A stretch of DNA of 64,000 nt, from contig JANQSA010000001.1 of assembly GCA_028284285.1 (NCBI GenBank), positions 310,001-374,000 on the forward strand. The letters run 5' to 3'. The notes beneath the pieces are model-generated. The model was not told where the DNA came from, did no database searches, and was given only the letters and a program-made list of their open reading frames with translations. Shown here piece after piece: positions 17,917 to 35,410 of this stretch. A program made the translations under genes and the position numbers. Position 1 is the first letter of the stretch; every line of letters starts with the position of its first letter. The DNA comes from Croceivirga sp. (GTDB lineage Bacteria > Bacteroidota > Bacteroidia > Flavobacteriales > Flavobacteriaceae).

Positions 17917-18297
17917 TTAATTGAGCACTACGGTATAGTCAACATTTTCTGCAGTAATCAATTCAGAAGAATCGGTAAGCCTGTTATTGAGCAAATTCTT
18001 CAACTCTTCCAGTTCTGCCCTGTTTAGCATAATCTGAAGATTGGATTGTAAGGTGGGAATCGGTATTTTACGTTTTATGTTACAACTGCAATACACCCTT
18101 TCCCAGTGGTCCGGATTCAATTGTTCTAAAAACCCTTGAAAATGGGTGAACTCTTTTTGGGTTAGTTCGAAGAAAATGTTACCGAAAGAAACCTGATACG
18201 ATTTACATACTTTGCATTGCAAAAGGAGTCCGTTCTTAGTATGATTAATGACCGTGGTATTATGGCACATATGACAATGGGATTTATAGTGTAGCAA
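17917..18297 (-). CDS. DUF6686-type zinc-ribbon-like protein
   Basis: 126 residues. N-terminal CHMCHNT...CKVCKSYQVSFGNIFFELT forms a four-Cys ribbon (C9-x2-C and C-x2-C), followed by a helical part and a second short CSC motif. This arrangement fits the small Bacteroidota family DUF6686; family name given from memory. Likely a metal-binding cytosolic protein without known activity. First gene of a two-gene operon with the methyltransferase; box 4 lies 28 bases before its ATG. Confidence 0.65.
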   Translation of the reverse strand: MLHYKSHCHMCHNTTVINHTKNGLLLQCKVCKSYQVSFGNIFFELTQKEFTHFQGFLEQLNPDHWERVYCSCNIKRKIPIPTLQSNLQIMLNRAELEELKNLLNNRLTDSSELITAENVDYTVVLN

Positions 18298-18324: not shown

Positions 18325-18347
18325 TTATTTAGATTAATTAAAAATAA
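18325..18347 (-). promoter_or_regulatory. Fur-type box 4 upstream of DUF6686/methyltransferase
   Basis: Plus strand TTATTTAGATT-A-ATTAAAAATAA. It lies between the converging end of nothing and the ATG at 18297; a consensus -7 element is not clear on the minus strand (closest CACTTTG at about 18305-18311). Confidence 0.65.
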
Positions 18348-28543: not shown

Positions 28544-29539
28544 ATGAAGACCAGAATTTATGGGACCGATCTTAATGAGATGCTTCTGGAGGCAAACTAT
28601 CCCAGATGGTTTAAAGACGAAACGGAAACCCTGCTGGAACGCACTTTTTCCGCAGATATCTTTTTGGGTAGGGGAACGTACAAAGAGGTCTTTTTTGAAG
28701 GGGTTCATATAGGGTATGGGGACCTGGAGCTTTCCAGAAACACGATGGTCAATTTTGAAAGTGAATTTGAGACAGTAGAAATGCATTTTGCCCTCAACGG
28801 AACTACAGTTACTACCTCAGATTATTTCAACGATACTATTCGTTTCTCGCCGGGGAGCCATAATGTGTTTTACACCAAGGGTTTTCAGGGACTTTCGGAA
28901 TGGTCCTCGCGGTTTCCATTGCGGATTTTTGAAATTAACATGACACCTGATTTCTTCAAAAAGTACCTCCCGGAAGGCCATCGGCTTTTTGATGACTTCA
29001 GGAAAGCCATGTTTCAAAAGAGATCAGCGGTTTTAGGCCACCAAAACTATCCCATTACCCTGGAAATGTTCACCGTCATAAATGACATTATTCAATGTCA
29101 ACGTCAAGGTATTTTTAAACGGATATTCCTTGAGTCCAAGGTGATCTCCCTCTTATTATTACAATTGGAACAAATCACTTTGCTTACAGCCAAAAACACC
29201 CATAAAAGCCTTAAAAAAGAAGACGTGGAGAAGATGTATGCCGTTAAAGAATTGTTGGATATGAATTTTAAAAAAGCGAATACCCTCATTGATTTGGCAA
29301 GAAAAGTAGGAACCAACGAGTATACGCTTAAAAAAGGTTTTAAAGAGTTGTTTGGAACCTCGGTGTTCCAGTACTGGAAAGGGCTACGTCTTGAGACCGC
29401 AAAAAATATGCTGGTTGAAGAGGGATTAAGTGTACAGGAGGTTTCCAGAAAAATAGGATATAAAAACCCACAACACTTCACTGCTGCTTTTAAACGACAA
29501 TTTGGGATTGTACCGAGTTCCCTTAAAAGCCAGAAATAA
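28544..29539 (+). CDS. AraC-family regulator, PchR type
   Basis: 331 residues. The N-terminal about 220 residues form the sensor (VHIGYGDLELSRN, VEMHFALNGTTVT, FSPGSHNVFYTKGFQGLSEW). The C-terminal about 105 residues are a double helix-turn-helix: NEYTLKKGFKELFGTSVFQYWKGLRL then VQEVSRKIGYKNPQHFTAAFKRQFG. The LKKGFKELFGTSVF segment is typical of PchR/YbtA-like regulators, which activate receptor genes when they bind the imported ferrisiderophore. Divergent from the eight-gene operon, with Fur-type box 5 and two direct repeats in between. Confidence 0.85.
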   Translation: MKTRIYGTDLNEMLLEANYPRWFKDETETLLERTFSADIFLGRGTYKEVFFEGVHIGYGDLELSRNTMVNFESEFETVEMHFALNGTTVTTSDYFNDTIRFSPGSHNVFYTKGFQGLSEWSSRFPLRIFEINMTPDFFKKYLPEGHRLFDDFRKAMFQKRSAVLGHQNYPITLEMFTVINDIIQCQRQGIFKRIFLESKVISLLLLQLEQITLLTAKNTHKSLKKEDVEKMYAVKELLDMNFKKANTLIDLARKVGTNEYTLKKGFKELFGTSVFQYWKGLRLETAKNMLVEEGLSVQEVSRKIGYKNPQHFTAAFKRQFGIVPSSLKSQK

Positions 29540-30453: not shown

Positions 30454-30485
30454 TTATTTAGAATCATTAAAAATAACTAAATTTG
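30454..30485 (+). promoter_or_regulatory. Fur-type box 6 and -7 element of fur
   Basis: Plus strand TTATTTAGAAT-C-ATTAAAAATAA (30454-30476) followed directly by the -7 element TAAATTTG (30478-30485); the ATG is 52 bases downstream. A consensus-grade box on the regulator gene itself indicates autoregulation and links the motif to this protein. Confidence 0.8.
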
Positions 30486-30537: not shown

Positions 30538-30990
30538 ATGGCTTGCGTAAGTAGTTTAGAAATTATAAAAGGGGTTTTTACGGAATTTCTTGAAAAGAAT
30601 GGGCATCGCAAAACCCCTGAACGATTTACTATTCTGGAAGTAATCTACAACAGCGACGAACACCTGGATATTGATTCGCTTTATATTCGAATGAAGCAAA
30701 AGAATTACAGAGTGAGTCGGGCGACTTTGTACAATACCATGGAGCTTTTAAAAGAATCGCACCTGGTGCGCAAACATCAGTTTGGAGATGGGGTAGCCAA
30801 ATACGAAAAATCGTTTTTAAGCAAAAAACATGATCATGTTATTTTAACGGATACCGGGGAAGTACTCGAGTTTACGGATCCTCGTATTCAACATATTAAG
30901 GAGACCATTGAAGAAGTTTTTGACATCAATATAGACGAGCATACCTTGTATTTTTATGGTGTTAGAAACGAAAAAATAAAAGCGGATTGA
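30538..30990 (+). CDS. fur: Fur-family ferric uptake regulator
   Basis: 150 residues. Winged helix: [56 protein letters not shown], with the Fur recognition helix [12 protein letters not shown]. The dimerisation/metal part has [15 protein letters not shown] (Fur 'HHDH' region, here KKHDH) and DEHTLYFYG. The C-x2-C structural zinc motifs of many Fur/PerR proteins are absent; the only Cys is at position 3. Fur versus PerR cannot be decided from motifs, but the iron genes carrying the shared box favour Fur. Controlled by box 6. Confidence 0.88.
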
Positions 30991-33388: not shown

Positions 33389-33634
33389 TTAGGCTACCGC
33401 ACGCGGTGCCCAGCTGGAACACAGCATTTCAGGTGCTGCTTGTGTCGGATGTGGGCAAGTGGCGGTTTGGTAACGCACGCAGGTACCGCAATTTAAATTG
33501 TTTTTTAAAGTGGCTTTCATGTCAAAGCTGTCACAGGTATGACGTTCAGTGACTTTGATGTTGTGCTGCGCACAAGTGCTGTCGTTGTTAAAATTGTTAC
33601 AGTTCGTACAATTTGTGGCTAATCGAATAGGCAT
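33389..33634 (-). CDS. Small cysteine-rich protein with duplicated C-x2-C modules
   Basis: 81 residues, eight cysteines in two tandem modules: C9-x2-C12-x8-C21-x12-C34 and C49-x2-C52-x7-C60-x11-C72. Both modules share NCxxC...TCxxH/P...C-S-F/W, so the protein arose by internal duplication. Each module could hold one Zn or Fe. No signal peptide, so cytosolic. No family recognised. Box 7 lies 82 bases before its ATG and a -7-like TAACTTTA about 30 bases before it (near 33661-33668). Either a metal buffer or an iron-sulfur/zinc regulatory protein would fit. Confidence 0.75.
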   Translation of the reverse strand: MPIRLATNCTNCNNFNNDSTCAQHNIKVTERHTCDSFDMKATLKNNLNCGTCVRYQTATCPHPTQAAPEMLCSSWAPRAVA

Positions 33635-33715: not shown

Positions 33716-33738
33716 ATATTTAGATTCATTAAAAAAGA
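33716..33738 (-). promoter_or_regulatory. Fur-type box 7 upstream of the cysteine-rich protein
   Basis: Plus strand ATATTTAGATT-C-ATTAAAAAAGA, the weakest of the eight (right arm degenerate). It overlaps the T-tract of the small-RNA terminator at 33731-33766. Confidence 0.5.
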
Positions 33739-33766
33739 AAGCGGCTGAATCCTAACGCCGCTTTCT
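33731..33766 (-). terminator. Intrinsic terminator of the candidate small RNA
   Basis: Minus strand stem AGAAAGCGGC / GCCGCTTTCT (10 bp, 11-base loop) followed immediately by TTTTTT. On the plus strand the A-run precedes it and no T-run follows, so it is directional for minus-strand transcription. Confidence 0.85.
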
Positions 33767-33812
33767 AAACCTAAATTCCTGAGAACACTTAGGAATCTAG
33801 TAAATTTTACCT
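33731..33812 (-). ncRNA. Candidate Fur-controlled small RNA, about 80 nt
   Basis: Minus strand: the -7 element TAACTTTG (33824-33817), overlapped by Fur-type box 8, is followed by about 80 bases containing no ATG and ending at a perfect intrinsic terminator. The predicted start is near 33812. Two hairpins are visible: CCTAAG-TGTT-CTCAGG (one mismatch, flanked by pairing ATT/AAT) and the terminator stem. Between them is an unpaired TTTAGGTTTAG stretch. Size, promoter, operator and terminator mirror RyhB-type iron-stress RNAs, although no sequence similarity is claimed. Alternatively it is an attenuated leader of the cysteine-rich gene downstream. Confidence 0.6.
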
Positions 33813-33816
33813 ATTC

Positions 33817-33844
33817 CAAAGTTATATAGAATAATTCTAAATAA
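33817..33844 (-). promoter_or_regulatory. Fur-type box 8 and -7 element of the candidate small RNA
   Basis: Plus strand TTATATAGAAT-A-ATTCTAAATAA at 33822-33844; its core TAGAAT-A-ATTCTA is perfectly symmetric, the best dyad of the set. On the minus strand the -7 element TAACTTTG (33824-33817) abuts it. guaB, 94 bases away on the other strand, has its own promoter at 33907. Confidence 0.75.
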
Positions 33845-33937: not shown

Positions 33938-35410
33938 ATGGAATTCCACCAAAATAAGATTGTAGGAGAAGGGTTGACCTATGACGACGTACTTTTGGTC
34001 CCCGGTTTCTCGGAAGTGCTTCCCAGAGAAGTGAATATCACCTCCAGATTCACCCGTAACATAACCATTAACGTGCCCGTAGTTTCTGCGGCTATGGATA
34101 CCGTTACAGAATCCCAGATGGCCATTGCCATGGCCAGGGAAGGGGGCATTGGGGTGTTACACAAAAATATGACCATTGAGCAGCAGGCCAACAAGGTGCG
34201 AAAGGTAAAACGAGCCGAAAGCGGGATGATCATGGATCCGGTTACCCTGCCTTTGGATGCGATTGTACGGGATGCCAAGGCCAGTATGAAAGAGCACAGC
34301 ATTGGAGGAATACCCATTGTGAATGGCAGCGGAAAGCTCAAAGGCATTGTCACCAATCGCGACCTTCGGTTTGAGCGAAACAATGACCGCCCCATCACAG
34401 AGGTAATGACTTCTGAACATTTGGTCACGGCAGGAGTAGGGACTACCCTTGCGGAAGCAGAAGACATCTTACAAGCCAACAAGATTGAAAAACTACCGGT
34501 AGTGGATGAGGACTACAAATTAGTAGGGCTCATTACTTTCAGGGATATCACCAAATTAACACAAAAGCCCATTGCTAACAAGGACCGATACGGACGCCTG
34601 CGGGTGGCTGCTGCCATAGGCGTAACACGGGATGGCGTGGAGCGAGCCGGTGCGTTGGTAAAAGCCGGGGTAGATGCCATTGTGATTGATACGGCGCATG
34701 GCCATACGAAGGGTGTGGTCAATGCCTTGAAAGAAGTGAAGGCAGCCTATTCGGATTTAGACGTTATTGTGGGCAATATTGCTACGGCCGCTGCCGCCCG
34801 ATATCTGGTAGAAGCCGGTGCTGATGCCGTAAAGGTAGGTATTGGTCCGGGCTCTATTTGTACAACACGGGTAGTAGCGGGAGTAGGGTTTCCCCAGTTT
34901 TCCGCTGTTTTGGAGGTGGCTTCCGCGATAAAAGGAAGCAACGTGCCGGTAATTGCCGACGGTGGAGTCCGGTATACCGGGGATATTCCTAAAGCCATCG
35001 CTGCAGGCGCAGATACTGTGATGTTGGGCTCCCTCCTTGCTGGTACCAAAGAATCCCCGGGAGAAACGATCATTTATGAAGGTCGGAAGTTTAAAAGCTA
35101 TCGTGGCATGGGTTCCGTAGAAGCCATGAAAGAAGGCAGTAAAGACCGCTACTTCCAGGATGTGGAAGACGATATTAAAAAGCTGGTGCCCGAGGGTATT
35201 GTAGGGCGTGTCCCATACAAGGGGGATCTGTATGAGAGTATGCATCAGTTTATCGGGGGCTTGCGCGCCGGTATGGGATACTGCGGGGCAAAAGATATTG
35301 CGACCTTACAGGAGACAGGACGGTTTGTCAAAATCACCTCCAGCGGGATCCATGAAAGCCACCCCCATAATGTAACGATTACTAAGGAAAGCCCGAATTA
35401 TAGTCGGTAA
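33938..35410 (+). CDS. guaB: IMP dehydrogenase
   Basis: Oxidises IMP to XMP with NAD+, the committed step of GMP synthesis. 490 residues, full length. N-terminal [21 protein letters not shown], two CBS domains (about residues 95-210, [15 protein letters not shown] and [11 protein letters not shown]), [10 protein letters not shown], and the catalytic loop [17 protein letters not shown] with the active-site Cys; the flap region has [10 protein letters not shown] and the [10 protein letters not shown] end of the family. Promoter at 33907. Confidence 0.96.

Follow-up and report, generated by a model that had tools for sequence, protein, structure and literature searches.

The minus strand beside guaB in a Croceivirga sp. 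genome probably encodes an iron-sparing small RNA that acts in trans under Fur control, derives from the 3′UTR of a DUF6686 gene, and pairs at the translation starts of a phoX-like gene and of phoD. The RNA lies in a stretch of 64,000 nucleotides, the whole of which is referred to as the window. In the proposed mechanism, iron-loaded Fur, or a different iron regulator that recognizes this box, would block the RNA promoter, and iron shortage would release it to give an RNA of ∼82 nt. This RNA would pair through its hairpin loop and the linker preceding its terminator with the phoX-like translation start and near the phoD start, and the pairing would block translation of both, such that scarce iron would not be spent on Fe3+/Ca2+ phosphatases. 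The RNA would have arisen as the 3′UTR of an iron-regulated DUF6686 mRNA, with a deletion of the reading frame in the window's clade joining the iron promoter directly to the RNA. The features of the unit and its surroundings are as follows.

33824..33842, minus strand: Fur box ATTTAGAATTATTCTATAT, one mismatch to the Riemerella consensus (18 of 19 bases)
33817..33824, minus strand: −7 promoter element TAACTTTG, read from the sequence and abutting the Fur box
33731..33812, minus strand: predicted small RNA of ∼82 nt, 5′ end placed from the −7 element
33771..33800, minus strand: hairpin 1, 10 pairs, homologous to the hairpin at the DUF6686 stop codon in relatives
33780..33791, minus strand: seed 1 (hairpin loop) UAAGUGUUCUCA, with its complement in the phoX-like start codon region and in the region 15 nt before the phoD start
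33761..33775, minus strand: seed 2 (linker) UUUAGGUUUAGAAAG, with its complement in 15 nt (CTTTCTAAACCTAAA) of the phoX-like 5′UTR and CTAAACC beside the phoD site
33731..33766, minus strand: intrinsic terminator with a perfect 10-bp stem, an 11-nt loop GUUAGGAUUCA and T6
33938..35410, plus strand: guaB, divergent neighbour of the RNA unit, also at the locus in relatives
33389..33634, minus strand: gene for an 81-aa cysteine-rich protein, downstream of the RNA and outside the RNA unit, with its own promoter-like TTGG-N19-TAACTTTA
30538..30990, plus strand: Fur-family regulator gene (PF01475), with an iron box at 30456-30474
17917..18297, minus strand: diverged copy of the DUF6686 gene, the sole DUF6686 match in the genome, with its own iron box at 18327-18345

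The anatomy of the unit largely follows the original prediction. The Fur-type box (33842-33824) overlaps the −7 element (33824-33817) as proposed, and the fold of 33813-33731 (−29.5 kcal/mol, z −5.4, a value that none of 200 shuffles reaches) consists of one 10-pair hairpin and a perfect 10-bp terminator stem, followed by six T. The minus strand contains no ATG from the −7 element through the end of the T run, in keeping with the claim of about 80 bases free of it. The stretch TTTAGGTTTAG, put forward as unpaired, is not so throughout, its first five bases being paired in the 3′ arm of the hairpin. The consensus of the −7 element is TAnnTTTG, and no clear −33 element is seen by eye upstream of the RNA; promoters of the −7/−33 type are used by this bacterial group, as the available text of PMC5609570 has it. 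A terminator scan limited to loops of at most 8 nt was blank at the RNA unit, where the loop measures 11 nt, and Rfam returned no family at gathering score, RyhB included, anywhere in the 64-kb window. At the level of sequence, the unit is organized as a free-standing transcript with its own terminator, and we infer that it is transcribed. The terminator loop (33746-33756, minus strand) has a core, GGAUUC, that is kept in 8 of 10 sequences, the exceptions being those of the relatives G007 and G010. Its complement TGAATCCTAAC occurs at 3, 3, and 1 places (the RNA itself included) in the window's genome, hereafter G000, and in the related genomes G001 and G006, none of them at a gene start. The terminator loop may therefore bind something else.

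Control by iron is suggested by the box at the head of the unit. For the flavobacterium Riemerella anatipestifer, the results section of one paper gives the predicted Fur box ATTTAGAATTATTCTAAAT, of the ATTTAGA type, and its abstract gives the classical box GATAATGATAATCATTATC instead; in the portions of the paper available, Riemerella Fur bound DNA with the putative Fur box in gel shifts, with four promoters selected (PMC5609570). Box patterns with up to 3 mismatches were searched in the genome (4.8 Mb, 82 contigs) and yielded 20 matches, representing 13 distinct sites, versus 4 matches for the reversed pattern used as control. The box at 33842-33824 is the single best in the genome and the sole site with one mismatch. 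The window holds 8 matches versus 0.05 expected, and five of the 13 sites, located at two TonB-dependent receptor loci (by eye), the Fur-family gene, the DUF6686 copy, and the RNA unit. Sites elsewhere in the genome accompany feoAB, a TonB-dependent receptor adjoining a DtxR-type regulator, and the sufB region (genes named by eye). The stretch 13674-33842 forms an iron island with five Fur-box-like sites, within which one receptor gene is oriented divergently from the gene of an AraC-type regulator (28544-29539, by eye). Of the 15 genomes or MAGs checked at the guaB locus (the window's included), 14 retain the box at 1-4 mismatches, G005 being the only one without it. On the evidence of its sequence, the promoter of the RNA unit would be bound and controlled by Fur, and the Fur-family protein of 30538-30990 is the obvious candidate repressor.

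Comparison with relatives suggests that the predicted RNA is what remains at the 3′ end of a gene that lost its protein-coding part by deletion. Between the iron box and the homologous hairpin-terminator, other Croceivirga and Allomuricauda genomes (G007, G009, G010, G119, and the MAGs L061, L088, and L097) carry a DUF6686 ORF, which measures 115-117 aa in G007, G009, and G010. The G007 ORF was assigned to DUF6686 (PF20391, E 1.7e-38), and the others were found with it by tblastn. The homologous hairpin begins at the DUF6686 stop codon in these seven relatives, which is the arrangement of a 3′UTR-derived RNA there and not in the window, where the ORF is lost; the CTAG at the foot of hairpin 1 occupies the position of this stop codon. 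The loop UGUUCUCA is identical in 9 of 10 sequences, with G119 differing. The three MAGs are no independent test of the loop since they come from a pattern scan (at least three loci) that required TGTTYTNA and a GCGG terminator, and hence most of the loop itself. In the ORF-less G000, G001, and G006, the iron promoter runs directly into the hairpin. In a guaB tree of 20 rows, these genomes group together as a single clade (97/94, 99% of bootstrap trees) surrounded by ORF-bearing lineages, which makes loss of the ORF the simpler history, a direction we infer from the tree. The genomes G002, G003, G004, and G008 have the DUF6686 ORF without the RNA and G005 has neither, the RNA being absent from 5 of the 11 congeners.

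Both G000 and G006 harbor the diverged DUF6686 gene ∼15 kb away with its own iron box, and no second DUF6686 gene was found in G001. Such a second copy may have made the loss of the ORF harmless. In the window, a methyltransferase-like gene (by eye) follows the copy. The G001 leader (L158) contains ATGTGCTCT, which resembles DUF6686 gene starts, and a 9-codon frame that ends in the hairpin; by eye, ATGTGCTCT looks like a remnant of the lost DUF6686 ORF. A family-wide search with the model R1 gave matches in 17 of 397 genomes at E ≤0.01, and only G000, G007, and G119 among the 17 display the guaB setting. The other 14 matches, including that of G003, are without guaB, DUF6686, and the loop; most resemble plain terminators, and they were set aside.

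The predicted RNA looks iron-sparing because PhoX and PhoD, the classes to which its main predicted targets are assigned, are Fe3+/Ca2+ phosphatases. As described in the available parts of PMC4223295, PhoX contains two Fe3+ and three Ca2+ and PhoD one Fe3+ and two Ca2+, an unusual combination found otherwise only in PhoX to the knowledge of its authors. The exact loop complement TGAGAACACTT occurs at 5, 4, and 6 places in G000, G001, and G006 (RNA included) versus 1, 1, and 2 for the reversed control, and 7 of the 12 places outside the RNA are at starts, namely those of phoX-like (3), phoD (2), and DUF4837 (2) genes. In all three genomes, a site lies over the AUG of a lipoprotein gene, the phoX-like gene. 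Its mRNA start in G000 is complementary to both the RNA loop (12 nt) and the linker (15 nt), the latter through CTTTCTAAACCTAAA in the untranslated leader, which is complementary to a 15-nt run extending from the linker into the first bases of the terminator. The linker-leader pairing extends over 17 nt in G006. In G009, which has a different linker, it covers 12 nt of the species' own phoX 5′UTR versus at most 8 nt with the other 12 tested (G-U allowed), and in G010 (7 nt) and G007 (6 nt) it is no better than background.

The phoX duplexes formed with the own RNA of G000, G001, G006, G009, G010, and G007 have predicted energies of −30.0, −31.2, −33.4, −25.0, −22.8, and −16.8 kcal/mol, with z of −5.7, −6.0, −7.6, −5.3, −4.7, and −2.8, respectively. 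The background of 57 window genes with the RNA has a mean of −13.2 (sd 2.7), the strongest being −22.8 kcal/mol, and the ten RNA-less phoX homologues computed range from −5.7 to −17.6 kcal/mol. The G007 phoX duplex with its own RNA is weaker than those with most other species' RNAs. Among all 18 matching genomes, the phoX start site is present in 6 of 6 RNA-bearing congeners versus 0 of 12 RNA-less homologues (5 congeners and 7 others). The site is borne by three phoX types that are 39-51% identical to each other, and it goes with the RNA in three different genes, as a closer RNA-less relative is without it each time: G009 phoX is 79-82% identical to those of G002-G005, that of G010 is 70% identical to that of G020, and that of G000 is 72% identical to that of G011. 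The complementarity at the phoX start predicts pairing with the mRNA of an iron-using enzyme, tied to the presence of the RNA. A pairing of the proposed unpaired stretch with iron-enzyme mRNAs had been suggested as a check, and the complementarity at the phosphatase starts includes this stretch. The lipoprotein of the window species is classed as PhoX-like through its homologues only: the G000 protein has no Pfam match even at E 10, and a profile of phoX-like proteins gave no PhoX match in the PDB. Pfam PhoX is matched by 4 of 15 homologues, of which those in G010 (40.2 bits) and G007 (38.2 bits) pass the family cut-off of 24 bits.

A gene for a Tat-type protein carries the exact loop complement 15 nt before its AUG in G001 and G006, and the same site in G000 has one change that pairs as G-U. 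The protein is PhoD (PF09423, 1.1e-83; match to PDB 2yeq), and the predicted duplexes amount to −27.3 in G000, −33.7 in G001, and −31.3 kcal/mol in G006. The G009 duplex is weak (−18.4 kcal/mol, z −2.2), and its site GAGAACACAT matches the loop AUGUGUUCUC of the same species. The site is absent from G010 phoD (−14.5 kcal/mol) and from three distant RNA-less homologues, and no phoD match was found in G007.

Conservation bears on what kind of element the unit is. The last 65 nt of the RNA are identical to G000 at 65 of 65 positions in G001 and 63 of 65 in G006. Among the same three genomes, the leader between promoter and hairpin is identical at 9/23 to 15/23 positions and the 61 nt downstream of the RNA at 33/61 to 38/61, and guaB fourfold sites match G000 at 85 of 231 in G001 and 94 of 232 in G006 (37-41%), with 140 of 248 shared between G001 and G006. 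The identity of the 65 nt against this drift indicates that selection keeps the RNA after ORF loss. A non-functional relic, in which the iron promoter and terminator of the deleted DUF6686 gene are transcribed with no role, would look much like this unit, which resembles the remains of such a gene; given the near-complete identity between drifted flanks and the target complementarity at phoX starts, this explanation is quite improbable. The original prediction also offered a fallback, a leader or attenuator of the 81-aa cysteine-rich gene, which lies on the same strand ∼100 nt downstream of the RNA and nearby in several genomes. RNA and gene, which are separated by a perfect terminator and a distinct promoter-like site, are not conserved jointly: the RNA is kept in G006 (63/65), where the gene is decayed, in G001 (65/65), where it is absent from 1.5 kb downstream, and in G009 and L061, where it is missing from the fetched downstream stretch. 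The RNA is thus not read as a leader of this gene, and the fallback is left with a negligible probability. The cysteine-rich protein has no Pfam or NCBIfam match at E 0.001, and its gene adjoins guaB in several relatives. Conservation of the hairpins and promoter in relatives had been named as a test of the small RNA itself, and it holds for the box (14 of 15 loci) and for hairpin 1, which all ten sequences are predicted to form, with stems that differ (z −1.4 to −5.6). The hairpin was judged sequence by sequence since MAFFT failed to line up its arms; RNAalifold on the alignment A5 found only the terminator and no compensatory change.

The range of targets is a further point on which readings differ. 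Allowing one mismatch, the seed screen gave 80 places in G000 versus 76 for the control, which is no enrichment, and 95 versus 66 in G006. Of these, 78 sites in G000 and 69 of the 95 places in G006 were read, with 13/78 and 16/69 being start-proximal. Five start genes with 85-96% identity are common to both lists, comprising phoX-like, phoD, and three others (L282/L381, L313/L380, and L319/L350) with weaker duplexes of −18.2 to −24.4 kcal/mol; one further shared start is a weak 33% match. The strongest of the 69 sites in G006 is phoX-like, followed by phoD and then by DUF4837, tied with a non-start site. Among the 78 sites of G000, phoX-like shares the top rank with a site antisense to an ORF; the exbD-like start follows in third place, and phoD falls outside the 12 strongest. 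The RNA could instead act in trans by activating or only tuning phoX and phoD, or mainly on other targets such as the DUF4837 lipoprotein or the exbD-like gene, iron sparing not being its main job. The DUF4837 lipoprotein gene has an exact seed complement at about codon 4 in both G001 and G006. The exbD-like gene of G000 (L307, G000:C39:187174-188784; by eye) has GAGAACATTTAGGAA near its start at a predicted −33.3 kcal/mol and is a possible further target, with no counterpart among the G006 start sites read (69 of 95 places). This alternative is rather unlikely, as the phoX-like site spans the AUG, in keeping with a block of translation, and the two top targets that are conserved represent the two Fe3+/Ca2+ phosphatase classes. 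It is hardly probable that the complementarity at phoX starts is a coding coincidence of an MRTLK leader and that the RNA acts by structure only, for example through 3′ end protection or protein binding. The sequence ATGAGAACA also codes for MRT, so a share of the start matches at +1 is to be expected; other genes begin with MRT as well, such starts making up 5 of the 78 G000 sites, and the hairpin persists in all ten sequences despite its differing stems. Against coincidence, part of the pairing falls within untranslated leader sequence, where the second stretch spans 15-17 nt in G000 and G006 and, with other bases in both RNA and leader, 12 nt in G009; the phoD site likewise precedes its start codon.

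Iron-sparing sRNAs are well studied in proteobacteria, where RyhB spares iron through other enzymes and PrrF is one of its functional analogues. Like RyhB and its functional analogues HrrF and BrrF, the window RNA is a small RNA under a Fur box, here with predicted silencing of iron-using enzymes at translation starts. It differs from RyhB in having no Rfam match, in belonging to another phylum, in its Fe3+/Ca2+ phosphatase targets, and in its 3′UTR origin by ORF loss; to our knowledge, Bacteroidota are without Hfq. The window RNA therefore looks like one that works as an iron-sparing sRNA, not like a member of the RyhB family. The original call of an iron-stress sRNA with RyhB-like organization draws support from the box, from the retention of the RNA after loss of the ORF and of the cysteine-rich gene, and from the conserved complementarity at phosphatase starts. 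In the 3′UTR-derived sRNAs of enterobacteria, the functional RNA shares the terminator of an mRNA. Relatives of the window species likewise retain a coding gene ahead of the RNA; the window's clade has lost this ORF, and the gene's former promoter now precedes the RNA. In the available text on Flavobacterium psychrophilum, Rfp18 is a structured sRNA whose deletion alters mRNA levels and which acts on metalloprotease mRNAs, with pairing predicted via its third stem-loop (PMC9723704). Compared by description only, Rfp18 and the window RNA are both structured flavobacterial small RNAs, the former acting on metalloproteases and not described as iron-controlled in that text.

No Fur-controlled iron-sparing sRNA of Flavobacteriia, and nothing alike on sRNAs born from coding genes, was found among the literature matches listed, a search with subscription titles mostly outside its reach for the former. 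The same holds for DUF6686, with no paper, and for Croceivirga together with sRNA. No such RNA is described in the titles and abstract openings of papers joining sRNA, iron, PhoX, Fur, and alkaline phosphatase. On balance, we favor a reading in which an sRNA gene was born by ORF deletion and serves as a post-transcriptional iron-to-phosphorus switch that silences PhoX and PhoD through two seeds and evolved in step with three phoX genes.

One genus holds all the states of this history, that is, ORF with RNA, ORF alone, and RNA alone, and offers a view of how a coding gene becomes an RNA gene. Both alkaline phosphatase classes that depend on iron are predicted targets, and in the Western North Atlantic, iron addition raised natural phosphatase activity, according to the available portion of PMC5454538. 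With a regulator that balances phosphorus scavenging against iron, this coupling of iron and phosphatases would become open to genetic tests.
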